Source: an uncultured Roseobacter sp.
GTDB lineage: Bacteria > Pseudomonadota > Alphaproteobacteria > Rhodobacterales > Rhodobacteraceae
Assembly (NCBI RefSeq): GCF_947499265.1
Contig: NZ_CANMNK010000005.1
Span: forward strand, 308,173-372,172
Direction of reading: 5' to 3'
DNA length: 64,000 nucleotides
The notes below the pieces were generated by a model. That model worked only from the letters and a program-made list of their open reading frames with translations. It was not told where the DNA came from and did no database searches. This document shows, piece by piece, positions 50,596-61,122 of the stretch. Position 1 is the stretch's first letter. Every line of letters starts with the position of its first letter. A program made the translations under genes and the position numbers.

Positions 50596-51741
50596 TCAGA
50601 AACAGCTTTCCAGCAACTCGGTGGTGTTTTTCACGGTCATTTTCACCGGATTACCGCCGCAGCTTGGATCCTGCAGCGCAGATGCCACCAGAGCGTCCAT
50701 ATCCGGCTCGGTCACCCCCAACGCCGTCAGGTTCGCCGGGATCCCAAGCTTGGCGTTCATCTCACCCACAAATTTGTAAAACCCGTCAAACCCGCCTGAA
50801 ATGCTGAGGTAATTCGCAGCCCGCGCAAGATGTTTGCGCACCCGGGGCCGGTTGAACATCAGCACCTGCTGCATGACCACGGCGTTGGTGGTGCCGTGAT
50901 GGGTGTGGTGCACAGCGCCAATGGGATGAGACAGCGCGTGAATGGCTCCAAGCCCTTTTTGAAACGCGGTGGCCCCCATGGCGGCCGCTGACATCATATG
51001 CGCCCGCGCCACTAGGTTGGTGCCATCCTCAAAAGCGGTGAGCAGGTTGTCCTTGACCAACCGCATGCCTTCCAGGGCGATCCCCTGGCTCATCGGGTGG
51101 TAATGCGGCGAACAATAGGCTTCCAGACAATGGGCAAAAGCATCCATGCCAGTGCCGGCGGTGATCGCTGGCGGCATGCCCACGGTCAGCTCCGGATCGC
51201 AAATCACCACGGCGGGCAAGATCTTCGGATGAAAGATGATCTTTTTCTCATGGGTTTCCGAATTGGTGATGACGCTGGCGCGCCCCACTTCGGAGCCGGT
51301 CCCGGCCGTGGTCGGCACCGCGACAATCGGTGCAATCGCGTCTGCATCCGCCCGTGTCCACCAGTCGTCGATGTCTTCGAAATCCCACAACGGGCGCGTC
51401 TGCCCGGCCATGAAGGCAATGACCTTGCCCAAGTCCAGCCCCGACCCACCGCCAAAAGCCACCACGCCATCGTGCCCGCCCTCGCGGTATATGGCGACAC
51501 CTTCTTCGGCGTTCTGCTCGGTCGGGTTCGGATCGACATCCGAGAACATGGCCCGACCCAACCCCGCTGTGGTTAAGAGTTCCAGCGTGGCTTGGGTGAT
51601 CGGCAGATCGGCGAGCCCCTTGTCGGTCACCAGAAGCGGTTTCGTGATCCCGGCAGCAGTACAGGCCTCCGCGATTTCGGAAATACGTCCGGCGCCAAAG
51701 CGCACGGCGGTGGGATAGGACCAGTTGGCAACAAGGGACAT
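50596..51741 (-). CDS. Iron-containing (group III) alcohol dehydrogenase
   Basis: The 381-residue protein has the NAD-binding FGGGSGLDLGKVIAF and the metal-binding region GLGAIHALSHPIGAVHHTHHG of iron-activated alcohol dehydrogenases. It is the last gene of a seven-gene run and lies four bases after the aldehyde dehydrogenase. In that setting it most plausibly oxidises the alcohol group of a glutamylated amino alcohol to the aldehyde, with NAD. This substrate is inferred from the neighbours. Confidence 0.9.
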   Translation of the reverse strand: MSLVANWSYPTAVRFGAGRISEIAEACTAAGITKPLLVTDKGLADLPITQATLELLTTAGLGRAMFSDVDPNPTEQNAEEGVAIYREGGHDGVVAFGGGSGLDLGKVIAFMAGQTRPLWDFEDIDDWWTRADADAIAPIVAVPTTAGTGSEVGRASVITNSETHEKKIIFHPKILPAVVICDPELTVGMPPAITAGTGMDAFAHCLEAYCSPHYHPMSQGIALEGMRLVKDNLLTAFEDGTNLVARAHMMSAAAMGATAFQKGLGAIHALSHPIGAVHHTHHGTTNAVVMQQVLMFNRPRVRKHLARAANYLSISGGFDGFYKFVGEMNAKLGIPANLTALGVTEPDMDALVASALQDPSCGGNPVKMTVKNTTELLESCF

Positions 51742-51745
51742 CAGA

Positions 51746-53119
51746 TCAGGCCTTTTTCAGATGATATGATTTTGGACGTGTCAGATTGTGGTAGCCGATG
51801 ACAGACAAACCACCCCCCCGGCCCGTATCCTTGCAGCCGGTCCAGCACAAGCCCGGATCAAGGTAATCGGCGCGGTTCATGAAGACGGTGCCGGTTTCGA
51901 TGCTGTCACCAATCGCTTCGGCGCGCGCGGTGTCTTTGGTCCAGAGCGAGGCGGTCAATCCATAGTCGCTGTCGTTCATCAGGCGGATGGCGTGCGCGTC
52001 GTCCTGAACAGGCATGATCCCCACCACCGGGCCAAAGCTTTCCTCTCGCATCACCCGCATCGAATGATCCACGTCTACGAGGATTTGCGGCATCAGATAG
52101 GCGCCACTGTCCTGCGGGAAGAGCGCCGGATCGATCAACGCTTTGGCCCCTGCGGCCACGGCATCAGCTGTCTGGCTGCGCACCGCATCGGCAAATCGCA
52201 CCTGTGCCATGGGGCCCAGCGTGGTTTCAGGGTCCAGCGGATTGCCCAGCGTGTAGCCTTCCACGATCTTCACCGCCTTCGCGACAAACGCATCAAAATG
52301 GCGCTCGGTAACGTAGATGCGTTCGATCCCACAACAACACTGCCCGGAATTGAACATCGCCCCGTCAATCAGCGTCGCGGCGGCCGCATCAAGATCGGCG
52401 TCTTCCATGACATAGCCGGGGTCTTTGCCGCCCAGCTCCAGCCCCAGCCCGGTGAATGTGCCCTTGGCCGCCGCTTCCATGGCCCGGCCACCGCCGACGG
52501 AACCGGTGAAATTCACAAAGCCGAACGCGCGGTCGGCAATCAGGGCAGAGGTGGTCTGGTGGGTCAAGAAGACATTCTGGAACACATCCTCCGGGACGCC
52601 TGCCGCGCGGAATGCCTGCGCCATGCGTTCCCCCACCAGAGGTGTCTGGCTGGCGTGTTTCAGCATCACGGCGTTCCCGGCGATCAGCGCAGGGGCCACC
52701 GTATTAATCGCGGTCATATAGGGGTAATTCCACGGGGCCACGACCAGAATCAACCCATGCGGCACCCGTTTGATCATGCGCCGAAAGCTGTCGCTGTCCT
52801 CCAGCGCGATGTCGGCCAGCGCTGCTTCAGCAATGCCCGCCATATGCCGGGCGCGTTCGTCAAACCCGCCGAATTCACCGCCATACCGGATGGGGCGGCC
52901 CATCTGCCAGGCCAGTTCCGGCACGATCTCGTCGTTCATCGCGCCCACGTTGGCCACGCCTTTGAGCACCAGATCAATGCGTTCCCGCAGCGGTCGCGCA
53001 GCCCAGGCCACCTGCGCCGCCTTGCCTTTGGCCACCGCTTCTGCGGCTTCAAACTCGTTCAAAACGGGCCGCGTCGCATAGATCGACCCATCGATCGGGG
53101 AAATGCAAGTGATGGTCAT
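51746..53119 (-). CDS. NAD(P)-dependent aldehyde dehydrogenase
   Basis: The 457-residue protein has the ALDH signatures GLELGGKDPGYV with the general-base glutamate and FNSGQCCCGIERIYV with the catalytic cysteine, and a PWNYP motif (VVAPWNYPYMTAINT). Three adjacent cysteines at the active site are notable but occur in the family. It would oxidise the aldehyde made by the neighbouring iron alcohol dehydrogenase to a carboxylate. Short gaps (three and four bases) join it to both neighbours. Confidence 0.92.
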   Translation of the reverse strand: MTITCISPIDGSIYATRPVLNEFEAAEAVAKGKAAQVAWAARPLRERIDLVLKGVANVGAMNDEIVPELAWQMGRPIRYGGEFGGFDERARHMAGIAEAALADIALEDSDSFRRMIKRVPHGLILVVAPWNYPYMTAINTVAPALIAGNAVMLKHASQTPLVGERMAQAFRAAGVPEDVFQNVFLTHQTTSALIADRAFGFVNFTGSVGGGRAMEAAAKGTFTGLGLELGGKDPGYVMEDADLDAAAATLIDGAMFNSGQCCCGIERIYVTERHFDAFVAKAVKIVEGYTLGNPLDPETTLGPMAQVRFADAVRSQTADAVAAGAKALIDPALFPQDSGAYLMPQILVDVDHSMRVMREESFGPVVGIMPVQDDAHAIRLMNDSDYGLTASLWTKDTARAEAIGDSIETGTVFMNRADYLDPGLCWTGCKDTGRGGGLSVIGYHNLTRPKSYHLKKA

Positions 53120-53122
53120 GGC

Positions 53123-54487
53123 TCAGGCCCTTTCAAAGCCGCGGGCGATTTCCCAATCGGTCACGGCGCGGTCAAACTCTTCCTGCTCCCACTCGGCGCA
53201 GCGGGTGTAGTGGTCGACCACGTCGTCGCCCATCGCCGCCCGCAGCATAGCAGAGCCGCGCAGCGTTTCCGTCGCGGCGCGCAGCGTTTGGGGGATGTCG
53301 GCGGCCTTTGCATCCTCGTAGACGTCGCCCTTGGTCGGTGGGGCAAGCACCATCTTGTCCTCAATGCCCTTGATTCCTGCCGCCAACATCGCCGCCTGCG
53401 CCAGATAGGGGTTCAGGTCCGACCCGCCGATGCGGCATTCCACGCGCACGCCTTTCGTGCCATCGCCGCAAAGGCGGAAGCCTGCCGTGCGATTGTCCAC
53501 CGACCAGACGGTTTTGGTGGGCGCAAAGGTGCCCTTGGCAAAACGCTTGTAGCTGTTCACATACGGGGCCAGGAAGAACGTATAGTCCGGCGCGTAGGCA
53601 ATCAGCCCGGCCATATAGTGTTTCATCAGCTCGGACATGCCAAGGTCATCCTTCGCATCGTGGAAGGCAGGCGTGTCGCCTTGCCAGAGCGATTGATGCA
53701 CATGAGAGGAGCTGCCGACCTTATTTGCCGCCCATTTCGGCAGGAAGCTTGCGGCATGCCCGCGTGCCCATGCGATCTCCTTGACGGCATGTTTCGCAAT
53801 CGTGTGGTGATCGGCGCAATCCAGCGCTGCGGCGTAGCGAATGTTCAGCTCCTCCTGCCCAGTCTCCGCCTCGCCCTTTGTATTCTCCACCGGAATACCT
53901 GCGGCATAAAGGTGATTGCGCAGGGGCCGCATGATCCCTTCTTCCTTGGTGGTCTGCAGGATGTGGTAATCTTCGTTATATCCGCTGATCGGCGCCAGAT
54001 CGCGGAAACCGCCCTTGCGGATCTCGTCATAGCTCTTCTCGAAGAGGAAGAACTCCAGCTCTGTCGCCATCATCGCGTCAAAACCAAGGGCCTCCAGTTG
54101 CGCGATCTGTTTTTTCAAAACCGCCCGTGGATCATGCGACACGGGCGCGTGGCTGTGATGATCAAGGATATCACAAAGCACCATGGCCGTGCCTTCCAAC
54201 CAAGGCATGGGCCGGATGGTGTTCAGATCAGGTTGCATGACGTAGTCGCCATAGCCAGCCTGCCAGGACGTGGAGGCGTAGCCATCGGGCGTCGCCATCT
54301 CCAGATCGGTGGCCAGCAGGTAGTTGCAGCAATGTGTCTCGGCATGGGAGTGTTCCACGAAATTCGCCGCATGGAACCGTTTGCCCATCAGTCGCCCCTG
54401 CATGTCGACAAAACAGACCAGAACGGTGTCGATGCTGCCCTCCGCCACCTGCGATTTCAACTGCTCAAAGCTCAGCGTGCCTGCCAT
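53123..54487 (-). CDS. Glutamine-synthetase-family gamma-glutamyl-amide ligase
   Basis: The 454-residue protein is a glutamine-synthetase homologue (MATELEFFLFEKSYDEI, KVGSSSHVHQSLW and ECRIGGSDLNPYLAQAAMLAAGIKG in part). The FDGSS segment that shapes the ammonium site of true glutamine synthetases is missing; the region reads YGDYVMQPDLNT. Relatives such as PuuA, IpuC and GlnT glutamylate amines. I therefore read it as an ATP-dependent ligase joining glutamate to an imported amine. It lies first in the catabolic part of the run, after the TRAP genes. Confidence 0.85.
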   Translation of the reverse strand: MAGTLSFEQLKSQVAEGSIDTVLVCFVDMQGRLMGKRFHAANFVEHSHAETHCCNYLLATDLEMATPDGYASTSWQAGYGDYVMQPDLNTIRPMPWLEGTAMVLCDILDHHSHAPVSHDPRAVLKKQIAQLEALGFDAMMATELEFFLFEKSYDEIRKGGFRDLAPISGYNEDYHILQTTKEEGIMRPLRNHLYAAGIPVENTKGEAETGQEELNIRYAAALDCADHHTIAKHAVKEIAWARGHAASFLPKWAANKVGSSSHVHQSLWQGDTPAFHDAKDDLGMSELMKHYMAGLIAYAPDYTFFLAPYVNSYKRFAKGTFAPTKTVWSVDNRTAGFRLCGDGTKGVRVECRIGGSDLNPYLAQAAMLAAGIKGIEDKMVLAPPTKGDVYEDAKAADIPQTLRAATETLRGSAMLRAAMGDDVVDHYTRCAEWEQEEFDRAVTDWEIARGFERA

Positions 54488-54608
54488 GGGATGTTCCGTT
54501 TTCTAGAGCGTTTTGATGTCTCTTGGGCATCGCTTATCACTTTTGGCGTTTGACCGAAGGGAAAGGCAGCGAAAAATAATCCCGAATGACATTGAAATGC
54601 TGTGGGTC

Positions 54609-54630
54609 GGGGGCGACGCGTGCCGCCCCC
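54609..54630 (-). other. Intercistronic hairpin after the TRAP dctP gene
   Basis: A perfect 7-bp stem, GGGGGCG at 54609-54615 and CGCCCCC at 54624-54630, closes an eight-base loop (GCACGCGT on the transcribed sense). It lies seven bases after the dctP stop and has no T run. The loop shares GCAC and a final GT with that of the hairpin at 43041-43064. Confidence 0.65.
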
Positions 54631-54637
54631 GGTTGGT

Positions 54638-55672
54638 TTAGGTGTAGCGGTAGGGCCGTCCGGCTTTTACCATATCCGCGTTGTACTTCTTGAAAATATC
54701 CACGACTTTCGCCTTGGTTTCGCTTTCAGCGGCAATCTCGTCCCAGAACTTCAGCGCCGCATCCTCGACCTGCTGCCATTCCGCATCCGGGATCGAGGTC
54801 AGCTCCATCTTGGTGCCATTGACCCGCAGATTGGCCTCGCCGCCCCAGTACCACCACTGGCGATAATAATGCGACTGGTCCATGCAGACCTTGAGCAGTT
54901 CCTGCAGATCCGGCGGCAGCGCATTGTAGCTTTCCATATTGGCAAAGAACGACCCCGCCCAGGCGCCAGAGATGTTGTTGGTCAGGAAATAGTTGGTCAC
55001 ATCCGCCCAGCCCACGGTGTAGTCCTCGGTGATGCCAGACCAGGCGATGCCATCAAGTTCACCGGTCTGCACGGCCACCTCGATGTCTTCCCAGGGCAGC
55101 GTCACCGGCACCACGCCGAACTGCGTCAGGAAACGCCCGGCGGTGGGGAAGGTGAAGACCCGCTTGCCCTTGAGATCCTCAAGGCTGTTGATCGGATCCT
55201 TGGTGGCAAAGTGGCAGGGATCCCACGCGCCCGCGGAGATGTGTTTGACCCCGACCGCGGAATATTCTTCGTCCCAGATCTCGTTCAGGCCGTACTGATT
55301 GAAGAGCACCGGTACATCCAAGCTATAGCGCGAGGCAAAGGGGAAATAACCTCCAAAGACAGTGACTTCGGTGGGGGAGGCCATGGAATCGTCATCCGAC
55401 TGCACCGCGTCGATGGTCCCGTTCTGCATGGCGCGGAACAGTTCACCGGTGGGCACCAGCTGATCGGCAAAGAAGAGCTCGATCTGCATCCGATCCCCGG
55501 CGATCTTGTTGAAGCTGTCGATGGCGGGCTTGATCACATGTTCGGCCAATGCGGGGCCCGCATAGGTCTGCATCCGCCATTTGATCGTCGATTGCGCCAG
55601 CGCGGGTGCGGCCAGTGGGGCCGCCGCTGCCCCCGCCGCAGCGGTGGTGAGAAACTTACGTCTTGTCGTCAT
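54638..55672 (-). CDS. TRAP transporter solute-binding protein (DctP)
   Basis: The 344-residue protein begins with a Tat-like signal (MTTRRKFLTTAAAGAAAAPLAAPALAQ) and has the DctP fold with GELFRAMQNGTIDAVQSDDDSM and WEDIEVAVQTGELDGIAW. TRAP proteins of this branch bind organic acids or small amines in the periplasm. I chose the ATG at 55672, with AAGGAG upstream; the frame opens 39 codons earlier, inside the permease gene. Ligand inferred from the neighbours: an amino alcohol or amine. Confidence 0.92.
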   Translation of the reverse strand: MTTRRKFLTTAAAGAAAAPLAAPALAQSTIKWRMQTYAGPALAEHVIKPAIDSFNKIAGDRMQIELFFADQLVPTGELFRAMQNGTIDAVQSDDDSMASPTEVTVFGGYFPFASRYSLDVPVLFNQYGLNEIWDEEYSAVGVKHISAGAWDPCHFATKDPINSLEDLKGKRVFTFPTAGRFLTQFGVVPVTLPWEDIEVAVQTGELDGIAWSGITEDYTVGWADVTNYFLTNNISGAWAGSFFANMESYNALPPDLQELLKVCMDQSHYYRQWWYWGGEANLRVNGTKMELTSIPDAEWQQVEDAALKFWDEIAAESETKAKVVDIFKKYNADMVKAGRPYRYT

Positions 55673-55719
55673 GGTGGTTCTCCTTGTTGAAATGAACGCC
55701 CCGTCGTCCGGGGTCTTGA

Positions 55720-57042
55720 TTATTTTCCGTAAACATATTCTGGCAGCCACAGAGCGATCTGCGGGAAACTCATGATCAGAGCCAGACACACCAGCATCAC
55801 GCCCACAAAGGGCAGAATGGAGCCATAAATGTCGCGCAGAGTAATCTCCGGCGGCGCCATCGCGCGCATCAGAAAGAGGTTATAGCCAAAGGGCGGCGTC
55901 ATATAGGCGATCTGCGTGGTGATCGTGTAGAGCACCCCGTACCAGATCAGATCGAAGCCCAGAGCAGCAACCAGCGGCACGTAGAGGGGCGCGACGATCA
56001 CCAGCATCGCCGTGTCATCGAGGAAGGTGCCCATCAGCAGAAAGCTCAACTGCATGAGGATCAGGATCATCCAGGGGTTCAGGCCCAACTGTTCCGTAAA
56101 CAACTGATCGATAGCTTTTACCGCCCCCAGACCGTCGAAAACCGCACCAAACCCGAGGGCCGCGAGAATAATCCACATAAACATGCAGGAGATCGCCAGC
56201 GTCTGACGCACGGAGGTCTCGAAGACTGCGCGGTTCATCCGACCTTTAAGCACGGCGGCCATGAAGGCCGTGAGCGCGCCAATTGCCGAGCTTTCGACCA
56301 GAGATGTCCAGCCATTCACGAAAGGCACCATCATCGCCATGAAGATCACGATGGGCAGCAGCCCCGCACGCAGCAGCCGCAGTTTTTCGCCCATCGGCAC
56401 GGTGCGCTCCTCGGGTGGCAACACGGGGCCCAAAGCGGGGTTCGCCTTGCAGCGCAGGTAGATGTAAAGAATGAAGGCCGCGGCCATCATCAGACCGGGC
56501 AGCACACCGGCGAGCCAGAGCTGCCCGACCGGCTGCCGCGCGATCATCGCATAGAGCACCAGCACCACCGAAGGCGGCACCAGGATCCCCAGCGACGAGC
56601 CTGCCTGGATCACCCCTGTGACCATCCGCTTGTCATAGCCCCGCCGCAAAAGTTCGGGCAGCGCAATTGTAGCACCAATGGCCATGCCTGCGACGCTCAA
56701 CCCGTTCATGGCGGAGACCAGCACCATCAGCCCGATGGTCCCAATCGCCAGCCCACCCGATACCGGCCCCATCCAGACATGGAACATACGGTAGAGATCG
56801 TCGGCGATCTTGCTTTCCGACAACACGTAACCCATGAAAATGAACATCGGCAGGGTCAGTAGCGGATACCATTTCATCAGCTTCATGGCGGAGGAAAACG
56901 GGATGTTCACACCACCCGGTGTCCAGAGCAGCACCGCCGCGATCGCCGCCACGCCGCCAATGGCGCCAAACACGCGCTGACCGGTCATCAGCATCAGCAT
57001 CATCGAGGCGAACATCAGGATCGCGATCATCTCATACGACAT
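55720..57042 (-). CDS. TRAP transporter large permease (DctM)
   Basis: The protein of about 440 residues has twelve or more hydrophobic segments and the DctM blocks LPMFIFMGYVLSESKIADDLYRM, GVIQAGSSLGILVPPSVVLVLYA and MGTFLDDTAMLVIVAPLYVPL. It is the sodium-driven transport subunit. Its start at 57042 overlaps the dctQ stop by 11 bases; an ATG at 57069 in frame would add nine residues. dctP follows after 47 bases. Confidence 0.92.
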   Translation of the reverse strand: MSYEMIAILMFASMMLMLMTGQRVFGAIGGVAAIAAVLLWTPGGVNIPFSSAMKLMKWYPLLTLPMFIFMGYVLSESKIADDLYRMFHVWMGPVSGGLAIGTIGLMVLVSAMNGLSVAGMAIGATIALPELLRRGYDKRMVTGVIQAGSSLGILVPPSVVLVLYAMIARQPVGQLWLAGVLPGLMMAAAFILYIYLRCKANPALGPVLPPEERTVPMGEKLRLLRAGLLPIVIFMAMMVPFVNGWTSLVESSAIGALTAFMAAVLKGRMNRAVFETSVRQTLAISCMFMWIILAALGFGAVFDGLGAVKAIDQLFTEQLGLNPWMILILMQLSFLLMGTFLDDTAMLVIVAPLYVPLVAALGFDLIWYGVLYTITTQIAYMTPPFGYNLFLMRAMAPPEITLRDIYGSILPFVGVMLVCLALIMSFPQIALWLPEYVYGK

Positions 57043-57610
57043 GCAAATCAACCTCGCGCAATGTCGCAATGTCCTTGATCAACTCGGAGATTGCCTGGAG
57101 CAGCATCAGAAAGAAGCCCACGATCATAACCACTTTGATTGGCCAGATGTAGGGCCGCCACGCGGTGCTGGAGCGCTCCAGCCGCCCGATCTCCTCCGAC
57201 CCCGTCAGCAGGCCCGCGAAATAGCTAAGCGGCTCCTGGCCCCAATACCCCAATGAATAAGCGGTGGACCCGAGGCCGCCGTAGAGCAGAATGCCCAGAT
57301 AGAAGATCAGCAACAGCACAGTGAAAGCATCGAACCACGCCTTCTTGCGCACCGACCAGTTGTGATAAAACAGGTCCATCCTCACATTCGCCCCCAATTG
57401 CACCGCATAGGGACCGCCCATGATGTAATAGGCGACCATCGCGAATTGCGCGATCTCAAGTGTCCAGAGCGAGGGGAGAAAGAACGTCTTGGAAATCGAC
57501 GACCAGAGCAAGATGCCCATCATGACAAAGATGCCGTACATCATGACCCGCCCGATCCGGTAGTTCACCGCATCCACCACGCGCACGTAAAGCCCCGCCA
57601 GACGCCTCAT
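57032..57610 (-). CDS. TRAP transporter small permease (DctQ)
   Basis: The 192-residue protein has four membrane helices and the DctQ pattern ISKTFFLPSLWTLEIAQFAMVAYYIMGGPYAVQLGANVRMDLFYHN (only partly quoted: GANVRMDLFYH). It couples to DctM in the membrane. The start overlaps the amidohydrolase stop by four bases, which ties the hydrolase to the transporter on one transcript. Confidence 0.9.
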   Translation of the reverse strand: MRRLAGLYVRVVDAVNYRIGRVMMYGIFVMMGILLWSSISKTFFLPSLWTLEIAQFAMVAYYIMGGPYAVQLGANVRMDLFYHNWSVRKKAWFDAFTVLLLIFYLGILLYGGLGSTAYSLGYWGQEPLSYFAGLLTGSEEIGRLERSSTAWRPYIWPIKVVMIVGFFLMLLQAISELIKDIATLREVDLHVV

Positions 57611-58380
57611 GTCTGTGCCTCCACCGCGCGGATCGCCGCAATGGCCTGTTGCAGCCAGGGCGCGAGCATATCCGCGATGACCACCTGATCCTGAGATGTC
57701 GCGATCAGATCGTTGCGCACCTCCAGCATGACATTTGGCAGCCCCTGTTTGACCCCATGTTCCTTGAGCGTATGGGTCACGCCGTCCTGCGGGCCGTAAG
57801 GTTGATTGCGTTCGGTTTTCAGCGTGGTGTGTTCGGCGGCACGGGCCAGAATCGCATCGGCGAGCCTGGCATCGGCATCGTGAAGCACACCGAGCTGCAC
57901 CCCGCGCGAGTGCCCCAGATAGACCGGCGTAAAACTATGAATGGTGATCAGCACATTTGCATGTGTGGCCTCCAGCGTTTCGGTGATGGCGGCCCTGAAG
58001 GGCGCATAGACGTCCGCGATACGCGCCGCTTGGTCGCGCGCGCTCAACGACGCATTGCCCGGAATATCGAACACTTCGCTGCGCGTTGGCATCGCGCCTG
58101 CAGCATCCGGTGGTCGATTGCAGTCATAGACCAGACGCGACACACCACCGGCCACCAGGGCTGCGTCCAGCACTTCCGACAACCGGCTTGCGACTCCCAA
58201 CGCACCAGGGTCCCAGGCGACATGGCTTTGACGTACATCCTCACTCACACCCAAACCGGCGAATTTCGCGGGGATGTGATTGGACGCATGTTCGCAGACC
58301 AGCACAATGCCGGAAGCACCGCTCTTGCGGCTCACAATGGCTGGCCTCAAGCCCGCATCAGACGTGGTGTTTGGCGTCAT
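57607..58380 (-). CDS. N-formylglutamate amidohydrolase-family protein
   Basis: The 257-residue protein has the FGase-family features VLVCEHASNHIPAKFAGLG, HVAWDPGALGVA, YDCNRPPDAAGAMP and LEVRNDLIA. Characterised members remove the N-formyl group of formylglutamate in histidine breakdown, but no hut genes are present. As first gene of a run with a glutamyl ligase and two dehydrogenases, it may instead split the gamma-glutamyl amide at the end of the pathway. Start ATG at 58380 with AGGGGG upstream; the open frame reaches 58431. Confidence 0.85.
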   Translation of the reverse strand: MTPNTTSDAGLRPAIVSRKSGASGIVLVCEHASNHIPAKFAGLGVSEDVRQSHVAWDPGALGVASRLSEVLDAALVAGGVSRLVYDCNRPPDAAGAMPTRSEVFDIPGNASLSARDQAARIADVYAPFRAAITETLEATHANVLITIHSFTPVYLGHSRGVQLGVLHDADARLADAILARAAEHTTLKTERNQPYGPQDGVTHTLKEHGVKQGLPNVMLEVRNDLIATSQDQVVIADMLAPWLQQAIAAIRAVEAQT

Positions 58381-58436
58381 TCGTCCCCCTGTTGGCACAA
58401 ACTTCTTGCCGGATCGGGATTCTGTCAACACAATAA

Positions 58437-58500: not shown

Positions 58501-59373
58501 GTGGAAGACGCCGAACAGACCATCGCGGACCGTATTCAGGCCCGATTGGAAACCCTGACCCGCGCAGAGCGGCAATTGGCGCATTCAATTCTGGAAAACT
58601 ATCCGGCCTCCGGTCTGGGCCCGATTTCGGCGCTGGCCAATGATGCGGACGTCTCAACCCCCACAGTGGCCCGAATGGTGCAGAAACTGGGGTTCAAGGG
58701 CTACCCCGAATTTCAGTCAGAGCTGCGTGAGGAACTGAAAGCGAAGGTCAAAAGCCCGATCGCCAAACACGACACCTGGGCCGAAGGCGCCCCATCGGGC
58801 CATATGCTCAACCGCTTCACCGAAGCGGTCATCGACAACATCCGCTATTCGCTTGGGCAGATCGACACAGGAGATTTCGATGCCGCCTGCGCGCAGCTCG
58901 CAGACACCACCTCAAAACTGCACATCGTCGGCGGGCGCATTACCCACACGATGGCGGAATATCTGTTTTTACACATGCAGATGATCCGCCCCGACGTGAT
59001 CCACATTCAATCCACCTCGAACGCCTGGCCACACTATTTATTGGACGTGAAAGAGGACGATACCTTCGTGATCTTCGACGTGCGGCGGTATGAAAGCAAC
59101 ACGCTGAAACTGGCGGAAATGGCCCGCGGCAGGGGTGCGCGCATCATCCTGTTCACAGATCAATGGCGATCACCCATTCACAGCCTCGCGGATATCTGCT
59201 TTTCCAGCCGCATCGTTGTACCCTCGGCCTGGGATTCTGCGGCAACGACACTGCTTTTGGTCGAAACGGCCATTGCCGCCGTGCAGGATTTGATGTGGGC
59301 GGACACCAAGGAGCGCATGCAGACCCTTGAAGACATGTTCGATCAAACCAAACTCTTCCGCAAGTTCACCTGA
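58501..59373 (+). CDS. RpiR-family regulator (HTH plus SIS domain)
   Basis: The 290-residue protein has the RpiR helix-turn-helix (ISALANDADVSTPTVARMVQKLGFKGYPEFQ in part, residues about 40-70) and a C-terminal SIS domain (KLHIVGGRITHTMAEYLFLHM) that in relatives senses a sugar phosphate or other small ligand. It is divergent from the amidohydrolase-TRAP-ligase operon and is its most likely regulator. The start is GTG at 58501, 120 bases from the divergent start. Ligand unknown. Confidence 0.88.
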   Translation: MEDAEQTIADRIQARLETLTRAERQLAHSILENYPASGLGPISALANDADVSTPTVARMVQKLGFKGYPEFQSELREELKAKVKSPIAKHDTWAEGAPSGHMLNRFTEAVIDNIRYSLGQIDTGDFDAACAQLADTTSKLHIVGGRITHTMAEYLFLHMQMIRPDVIHIQSTSNAWPHYLLDVKEDDTFVIFDVRRYESNTLKLAEMARGRGARIILFTDQWRSPIHSLADICFSSRIVVPSAWDSAATTLLLVETAIAAVQDLMWADTKERMQTLEDMFDQTKLFRKFT

Positions 59374-59406: not shown

Positions 59407-61122
59407 ATGACGGATCATAATCGACGCCCGCGCAACGGCCTGTCCCAAGTGATCGGCGACACCTCCGAGCCGTTGCTGAACCTCACCATTCCCGCATTGC
59501 TTGCGCGCACGGTTGCAGAACACCCCGACCACCCGGCGGCCGTCTTCCGCGCACAGGATATCCGCTGGACCTATGCCGAATTCAGCCAGGAGGTTGACCG
59601 CCTGGCCGGTGGCTTGCTGAAGCTTGGCCTCCAAAAGGGCGACCGCGTCGGCATTTGGTCACCAAATCGCGCGGAATGGCTGCTGACACAGTTCGCGACC
59701 GCCCGGATCGGCGCCATCCTGGTCTGCATCAACCCTGCCTATCGGCTCTCCGAGCTGGAATATGCGCTGAACAAGGTCGCCTGCACCGCGCTCATAACCG
59801 CCCGCGCGTTCAAGACCTCCGACTACACCGGCATGCTGGCGGCCCTCGCGCCGGAGTTGGAAACCGCGACCCCCGGCGCGCTCGCCGCCGCGCGCCTGCC
59901 CCATCTGCGCAGCATCATCGTCATGGGCGATGATATCCCGCCCGGCATGCTGAGTTTCGATGCGATCTGCGCTCAGGGCGATCAAACACCCGGCGCGGAT
60001 CTTGACGCCATTTCCACGGCGCTTGACCCGCAGGACGTGATCAACATCCAATTCACCTCCGGCACCACGGGCAGCCCCAAAGGCGCCAGCCTGACCCACC
60101 ACAACATTGTCAACAACGCCCATTTCGTCACCCAGGCCATGGCCTTCACACCCGCCGACAAGCTTTGCATTCCAGTGCCCTTCTATCACTGTTTCGGCAT
60201 GGTCATGGGCACCTTGGGCTGCGTCACCAAAGCCGCCACAATCGTCGTGCCCGGCGAAGGGTTCGATCCAAAAGACACCCTCAGCACCGTATCAGACGAG
60301 GCCTGCACCGCGCTCTTCGGCGTGCCCACGATGTTCGTAAACGAATTGGCGCTGCCGGATTTTGACAGCTATAACCTGTCGACGCTGCGCACCGGCGTGA
60401 TGGCTGGGGCGCCCTGCCCTATTGAAGTGATGAAACAGGTGCAATCCAAAATGCACATGCACCAGGTCACCATCTGTTACGGGATGACCGAAACCTCACC
60501 GGTATCTTTCCAGAGCAATGTGGATGACCCCCTGCACCAACGCGTCTCCTCCGTCGGGCGCATTCATCCCCATGTTGAGGTGCGTATTATCGATGACAAG
60601 GGTGAGACACGCCCGGTTGGCGCTCAGGGAGAACTGCTGACACGCGGCTACTCGGTGATGCGCGGCTACTGGGGCGAAGAGACCCAGACTGCCCGCAGCA
60701 TCGACGCGGACGGGTGGATGCACACGGGCGACCTCGCCACTCTCGATGCCGAAGGCTATTGCGCGATCACCGGTCGGGTCAAAGACATTATCCTGCGGGG
60801 CGGCGAGAATGTCTACCCGCGCGAGATTGAAGAGTTTTTATATACACATCCTGATATCGCGCAGGCCCAAGTTTTCGGCATCCCCGACGATAAATTCGGC
60901 GAAATCGTCTGCGCCTGGATCGTTCCGAGAGAGGGCGCGCAGCTGACATCGAATGACGTGCGGCAGTTCTGCAAAGACAATATCGCGCATTTCAAGGTGC
61001 CTGCGCATGTGTCTTTCAAAGACGAGCTGCCGATGACGGTCACCGGCAAACCGCAAAAGTTCATCATGCGGGATCAGATGATCGCTGAGCTTGCCGCCGC
61101 GCTAGCACCGGACAAGACCTGA
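59407..61122 (+). CDS. Fatty-acyl-CoA synthetase / AMP-binding ligase
   Basis: The 571-residue protein has the ANL-superfamily motifs FTSGTTGSPKGASLTH (phosphate-binding loop), YGMTETSP, WMHTGDLATLD and the C-terminal PMTVTGKPQKFIM with the catalytic lysine. It activates a carboxylic acid with ATP and CoA; medium-chain fatty acids are most typical for this branch, but the substrate is not certain. It begins 33 bases after the RpiR gene on the same strand, with GAGGAGGAA upstream, so both may be co-transcribed. Confidence 0.9.
   Translation: MTDHNRRPRNGLSQVIGDTSEPLLNLTIPALLARTVAEHPDHPAAVFRAQDIRWTYAEFSQEVDRLAGGLLKLGLQKGDRVGIWSPNRAEWLLTQFATARIGAILVCINPAYRLSELEYALNKVACTALITARAFKTSDYTGMLAALAPELETATPGALAAARLPHLRSIIVMGDDIPPGMLSFDAICAQGDQTPGADLDAISTALDPQDVINIQFTSGTTGSPKGASLTHHNIVNNAHFVTQAMAFTPADKLCIPVPFYHCFGMVMGTLGCVTKAATIVVPGEGFDPKDTLSTVSDEACTALFGVPTMFVNELALPDFDSYNLSTLRTGVMAGAPCPIEVMKQVQSKMHMHQVTICYGMTETSPVSFQSNVDDPLHQRVSSVGRIHPHVEVRIIDDKGETRPVGAQGELLTRGYSVMRGYWGEETQTARSIDADGWMHTGDLATLDAEGYCAITGRVKDIILRGGENVYPREIEEFLYTHPDIAQAQVFGIPDDKFGEIVCAWIVPREGAQLTSNDVRQFCKDNIAHFKVPAHVSFKDELPMTVTGKPQKFIMRDQMIAELAAALAPDKT

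Follow-up and report, generated by a model that had tools for sequence, protein, structure and literature searches.

A Roseobacter-type eto operon, very probably for ethanolamine, in an uncultured Roseobacter sp.

Gene content and order of the operon

We analysed a 64,000-nt stretch of DNA from an uncultured Roseobacter sp. (contig NZ_CANMNK010000005.1), called the window here, with positions counted over its whole length. A seven-gene operon at 50596-58380, flanked by a divergent regulator gene, is in our judgement very probably an eto operon of the Roseobacter type that serves ethanolamine. It repeats a system already in print: in Phaeobacter sp. MED193, the eto genes (MED193_10021 to 10056) are the same eight and follow one another as in the window, namely as RpiR, GGAH, EtoV, EtoW, EtoX, ETAGA, GAADDH, GETADH (Westermann et al. 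2023, PMC10132767), where ETAGA stands for ethanolamine gamma-glutamylase, GAADDH for the aldehyde dehydrogenase and GETADH for the alcohol dehydrogenase. The comparison was made with the published legend, which shows no difference in gene content or order. The genes of the window are as follows.

58501..59373, plus strand: RpiR-family regulator, divergent (HTH_6 and SIS domains)
57607..58380, minus strand: FGase-family hydrolase, predicted gamma-glutamylglycine amidohydrolase (GGAH; Pfam FGase PF05013, 138.5 bits)
57032..57610, minus strand: small permease DctQ of a tripartite ATP-independent periplasmic (TRAP) transporter, in the EtoV position, order as in MED193 (Pfam PF04290, 63.9 bits)
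55720..57042, minus strand: TRAP large permease DctM, in the EtoW position (Pfam PF06808, 219 bits)
54638..55672, minus strand: TRAP binding protein EtoX, ethanolamine-type (DctP PF03480; 628 bits to 4UAB)
53123..54487, minus strand: glutamine-synthetase-like ligase, predicted ethanolamine gamma-glutamylase (Gln-synt_C PF00120; 774.5 bits to 5DM3)
51746..53119, minus strand: aldehyde dehydrogenase (ALDH), predicted gamma-glutamyl-acetaldehydeamide dehydrogenase (Pfam Aldedh PF00171, 368.8 bits)
50596..51741, minus strand: iron-type alcohol dehydrogenase (Fe-ADH), predicted gamma-glutamylethanolamide dehydrogenase (PF00465, 166.4 bits; ADH_Fe_C, 136.4 bits)

All seven minus-strand open reading frames (ORFs) fell in their named families in a Pfam search of the window proteins, in the order FGase-family hydrolase, DctQ, DctM, DctP, ligase, ALDH and Fe-ADH. 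The gene names, order and coordinates given in the original prediction, which had been made from the letters of the window alone, are thereby borne out, and so is its divergent RpiR regulator. It had also described the genes as following one another with overlaps or short gaps. By ORF coordinates, this holds for five junctions: the FGase and DctQ genes overlap by 4 bp and those of DctQ and DctM (from ATG 57042) by 11 bp, while DctM and DctP (from ATG 55672) are spaced by 47 bp, ligase and ALDH by 3 bp, and ALDH and Fe-ADH by 4 bp. It does not hold for the 150-bp DctP-ligase spacing, the sole gap in the operon that is not short. The ALDH carries the SGQCC and ELGGK motifs.

Related loci were fetched by ligase similarity and taken as the best 80 of at least 497 confirmed relatives. 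In 61 of the 80, the seven genes keep their order and orientation, and 60 of these also have the divergent RpiR gene. Thus, the gene order is not a matter of chance, and the search for the seven-gene set in other genomes, proposed as a check on the original prediction, found it.

In the proposed route, EtoX with the EtoV and EtoW permeases would bring in the amine, most likely ethanolamine, which the ligase, using ATP, would couple to the gamma-carboxyl of glutamate. The hydroxyl group of gamma-glutamylethanolamide would be oxidised by the Fe-ADH, and the resulting aldehyde would be converted by the ALDH to gamma-glutamylglycine. The FGase-family hydrolase would then yield glycine and glutamate, so that glutamate would be recycled. 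RpiR would probably act as a repressor until the substrate arrives. Accordingly with the original prediction, the succession of import, glutamylation, alcohol dehydrogenase, aldehyde dehydrogenase and deglutamylation is that of the published ethanolamine pathway, with the same gene order (PMC10132767). The chemistry first offered for an imported amino alcohol is thus supported by sequence comparison and would narrow to ethanolamine. The assignment gives more exact names to seven genes otherwise called glutamine synthetase, N-formylglutamate amidohydrolase or generic dehydrogenases. Ethanolamine derived from phospholipids can feed marine bacteria, as stated in PMC10132767.

Published ethanolamine pathways

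In the published material cited, two things are shown for relatives of this system: EtoX binds ethanolamine, and proteins are induced on phosphorylethanolamine, five of those encoded in the MED193 operon being raised (PMC10132767). The same paper describes its genes as closely related to genes of C. salexigens and A. tumefaciens that were "demonstrated to function as an ethanolamine utilization pathway" by Vetting et al. 2015. Table 2 of a 2022 review (PMC9397018) gives PF00120, PF00465, PF00171 and PF05013 for the C. salexigens ethanolamine enzymes, the same four enzyme families as in the window. The review is inconsistent on this organism, counting it among characterized pathways in one place and calling the steps "proposed" in another, and Krysenko et al. 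2019 (PMC6529630) described the pathway of C. salexigens as predicted in silico. In the passages cited, the three texts differ on the extent of demonstration in C. salexigens.

Deglutamylation by an FGase-family protein, thought to be novel in the original prediction, is already in print: it was proposed in PMC6529630 and PMC9397018 and is named at the same operon place in PMC10132767. In particular, Krysenko et al. 2019 (PMC6529630) proposed the same route in S. coelicolor and assigned its hydrolytic step to the formylglutamate amidohydrolase family. This GlnA4 pathway (SCO1611-SCO1615) resembles that of the window in ethanolamine gamma-glutamylation, two proposed oxidations and gamma-glutamylglycine hydrolysis. 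It differs in that the Fig. 2 legend has a short-chain dehydrogenase and a putative ethanolamine transporter and names no Fe-ADH or TRAP genes. In the legend, orf5 is also called a glutamine amidotransferase, and in the discussion SCO1615 is assigned to the formylglutamate amidohydrolase family; the two may be one gene. A literature search joining Roseobacter, ethanolamine, sole nitrogen source and TRAP found no paper.

The binding protein EtoX and its two types

Residues 65-382 of the window's EtoX (P0004) match 4UAB at 628 bits, with the next-best chain at 66 bits, and the protein carries a Tat-type signal (TAT_signal_seq model, 19.8 bits; cut-off 16.7). The 4UAB structure is that of Csal_0678 from the C. 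salexigens cluster, solved with ethanolamine, which is held by Glu220 and aromatic side chains (PMC12410723). Csal_0678 is described as having no arginine of the kind behind the carboxylate preference of TRAP binding proteins (PMC4646407). Similarly, in the alignment of P0004 to 4UAB, Phe212 occupies the usual TRAP arginine place. Across 70 aligned sequences, the column of Glu255 shows at most one deviation, and we infer, through a 3-residue offset in chain numbering, that Glu255 corresponds to Glu220 of Csal_0678. Homology to 4UAB, the platform Glu and the missing TRAP arginine are thus found together, as in an ethanolamine-type TRAP binding protein. A second EtoX was sought in the same genome, and the three further matches found there were 23-27% identical. 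A distant DctP-like match (G000:C8:63527-64558) has one in-frame TAA and is possibly a broken gene.

We observed two main types of EtoX among the relatives. Out of 68 proteins, 46 are near that of the window (at least 74% identity), 18 lie at 59-64% and 4 fall between. The types differ at 42 alignment columns, each more than 85% conserved within type. Some aromatic positions are changed in type 2 (W151Q, W195Y and F174Y in 4UAB chain numbering). Type-2 operons (L013, L016, L019, L022, L024, L026, L033, L039, L044-L047, L054, L059, L062, L063, L070, L078) have much the same layout as that of the window, and the large permease beside a type-2 EtoX is still 80-86% identical to the window's. The types alternate between close relatives, for example L026/L029 and L024/L025. 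On a ligase tree of 69 rows, 47 of them with type-1 EtoX counting the window, the fewest type changes are 11, and at least 8 are forced by well-supported branches.

These two types bear on the choice of amine. The same chemistry could serve alaninol, 3-aminopropanol or 2-aminopropanol as the physiological substrate instead of ethanolamine, since the amine-side specificity of the ligase is not readable from sequence and the presence of both EtoX types among close relatives means that uptake specificity may vary within the family. We nevertheless consider this quite improbable: the EtoX of the window is of the same type as 4UAB, the ethanolamine complex, and the homologous Phaeobacter EtoX, of whichever type, binds ethanolamine with a dissociation constant of 7.9 uM (PMC10132767). 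Hence, among the amines offered in the original prediction, ethanolamine has evidence on its side through the 4UAB complex and the EtoX affinity; close analogues such as alaninol are not separated from it. It is conceivable, if rather doubtful, that the operon is a common chassis in which swapping the binding protein alone would retune uptake, type 1 being for ethanolamine and type 2 for another amino alcohol or affinity range.

The ligase and the hydrolase are set apart from their family namesakes

By their family names, glutamine synthetase and N-formylglutamate amidohydrolase, the ligase and the hydrolase could also be read as parts of a nitrogen-assimilation or histidine-degradation cluster, with a glutamine synthetase isozyme and an N-formylglutamate deformylase (HutG). 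The profiles leave hardly any room for this. The genome has six glutamine-synthetase-family genes, the window's ligase (P0003) included. Aligned with E. coli GlnA and with L001, a GlnA-like gene from its own genome, the ligase lacked the FDGSS segment, as had been noticed in the original prediction; L001, one of the five other members of the family, keeps it like E. coli GlnA. The ligase has Phe321 at the position of the Glu in GlnA PGYEAP, and we take this Glu and the Asp of FDGSS to be ammonium-site residues. On the GlnA model it scored 243.1 bits against a cut-off of 429.15, and GlnA type I was rejected on the absence of FDGSS and this score. It also stayed under the curated type III glutamine synthetase cut-off, and its beta-grasp domain under the Pfam cut-off (20.1 versus 33.4 bits). 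The best solved relative is 5DM3, presumably from Chromohalobacter salexigens (774.5 bits), followed by 11ZS (587.7 bits), with the remainder at 176.4 bits or below.

The hydrolase gave a similar picture. With 12.9 bits on the HutG model TIGR02017 (cut-off 278.75), it is a PF05013 hydrolase distinct from HutG, which was rejected for it. Two other FGase genes of the genome reached 340.9 bits (L088) and 114.8 bits (L087) on the same model; L088, which passes, adjoins an ORF read by eye as histidine ammonia-lyase. One solved relative of the hydrolase was found, 2ODF (Atu2144), at 249.6 bits. The window's protein and 2ODF were aligned together with 66 relatives. Residues that are conserved there and common to HutG, among them H48, H70, R99, D103, N105, R106, H165, S166 and E237, look like a common catalytic core. 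C46, W73, D74, Y102, F167 and Y212 are conserved here and different or missing in HutG. The pattern fits HutG-like chemistry on another substrate, with residue roles that we infer.

A route for polyamines or alkylamines, like those of PuuA and IpuC, would share with the window the ligase family and an aldehyde dehydrogenase, and the ligase does match the PuuA model NF045547, at 208.2 bits. This falls far short of the cut-off of 650, on which PuuA was rejected for the ligase. The seven genes include neither a PuuB-type oxidase, as in the puu locus, nor a P450, as beside ipuC, and the presence of an alcohol dehydrogenase would point to a substrate with a hydroxyl group. We therefore give such a route almost no credence. 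IpuC of Paenarthrobacter aurescens TC1 plasmid pTC1 (L092), an annotated gamma-glutamylating ligase, and PuuA are likewise without FDGSS in the alignment. The ligase shares 37% identity with IpuC, whose neighbours include a P450, a ferredoxin and a putative glutamine amidotransferase, and 26% with PuuA of the E. coli puu locus (PuuA, PuuB, PuuC, PuuD; L090). The puu steps run in the order glutamylate, oxidise, oxidise, deglutamylate, as in the route proposed for the window. E. coli puu uses the oxidase PuuB and the hydrolase PuuD, of the class I amidotransferase type, where the window has Fe-ADH and FGase instead.

The canonical eut pathway was rejected too: a profile of the ethanolamine ammonia-lyase EutB (PF06751), which matched E. 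coli among 14 control genomes, had no match in the window's own genome (100% complete by estimate, 28 contigs).

Distribution and variants among relatives

Several observations weigh against the assignment to an eto operon for ethanolamine. The catalytic steps, the substrate and the regulation in the window's strain are all deduced from sequence relations. Taken alone, the IpuC and PuuA analogies would be weak, because the ligase is only 37% and 26% identical to these proteins. The parts of the ethanolamine-pathway literature covered yielded no direct test of gamma-glutamylglycine hydrolysis by an FGase-family protein. The rise of Phaeobacter EtoX is not specific to ethanolamine, since it was also up in the no-phosphate control (fold change 2.14; PMC10132767). 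Furthermore, the set is not always whole: beside the 60 loci with all eight genes, the other 20 of the 80 miss at least one. No ALDH lies between ligase and ADH in 7 of 80 relatives, with a ligase-ADH gap of 31-128 bp in L031, L035, L036, L038, L039 and L073 and of 905 bp in L077. Two otherwise full operons (L016, L017) showed no clear Fe-ADH in 10 kb downstream. Neither TRAP genes nor a matching hydrolase were found in 10 kb upstream in L031, L035, L038, L043, L055, L072, L073 and L079, and in L086 the hydrolase is present and TRAP genes were not seen.

Among the 20 incomplete loci, the contig ends less than 4 kb from the ligase on one side in L042, L047, L049, L057, L065 and L077. In L038, the ligase and Fe-ADH genes adjoin ORFs that resemble, by eye, a hydantoinase-type amidohydrolase and a racemase.

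The ligase type is common: of 198 genomes sampled from the family to which the window belongs, 117 carry a match at E <= 1e-150, counting the window's own genome. When plasmids were searched at the protein level, 58 records were obtained, six of which were examined; one of the six is that of IpuC. The full TRAP form is present in Paracoccus denitrificans PD1222 and Rhodobacteraceae SC52. The same enzyme core occurs on S. meliloti pSymB (L095) with an amino acid permease instead of TRAP, and in Ruegeria conchae (L093) with an EamA transporter and a DeoR/GlpR regulator instead of TRAP. Paraburkholderia phenoliruptrix has a 55.8% ligase in another setting, near a gamma-glutamyl-gamma-aminobutyrate hydrolase-family gene and a 2-aminoethylphosphonate transaminase gene.

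Upstream motif, etoX hairpin and a neighbouring gene

Two non-coding features accompany the operon.

58419..58434, minus strand: partial palindrome ATTGTGTTGACAGAAT, candidate RpiR operator, between the divergent genes and overlapping a TTGACA (-35-like) hexamer
54608..54631, minus strand: GC-rich hairpin with no T tract, directly 3' of the etoX stop codon, a 10-bp stem in a 161-nt fold

A site within 4 mismatches of ATTCTGTTGACAGAAT was present in 42 of 65 rpiR-hydrolase intergenic regions, the window included, and random same-length stretches of the same loci reached this threshold in about 0.9% of 650 draws. The motif was picked from the regions in which it was later counted and the relatives are close kin, so the excess over random reflects conservation, not binding. 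The window copy ATTGTGTTGACAGAAT is the sole exact match to ATTSTGTTGACAGAAT in the genome, with four others at 2 mismatches. This upstream motif may serve as an RpiR operator, as a conserved -35 region or as the two at once. The start of the hydrolase is placed at ATG 58380; the longest ORF would begin at GTG 58431, within the motif. A first operator guess, TGAAA-N4-8-TTTCA, was dropped, being found in only 5 of the 65 intergenic regions. A scan for sigma-70 promoters and terminators performed no better than shuffles (2 versus a mean of 3.5, and 8 versus 7.9) and was left unused.

The whole 161-nt stretch after etoX is mildly more stable than its shuffles, 9 of 200 of which did as well (z -1.89). 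Among relatives, with 30 mononucleotide shuffles each, the 55 bases after etoX fold with z < -2 in 48 of 68 cases; such values were obtained elsewhere in 12 of 66 cases after DctM, 6 of 66 after FGase, 1 of 71 after ALDH and 20 of 75 after ADH. The etoX hairpin is perhaps an mRNA stability or processing element.

Finally, a gene for an AMP-binding acyl-CoA ligase lies behind rpiR at 59407-61122. Only 5 of the 80 relatives, each with a Roseobacter title, have it next to rpiR, and it is therefore probably outside the system.

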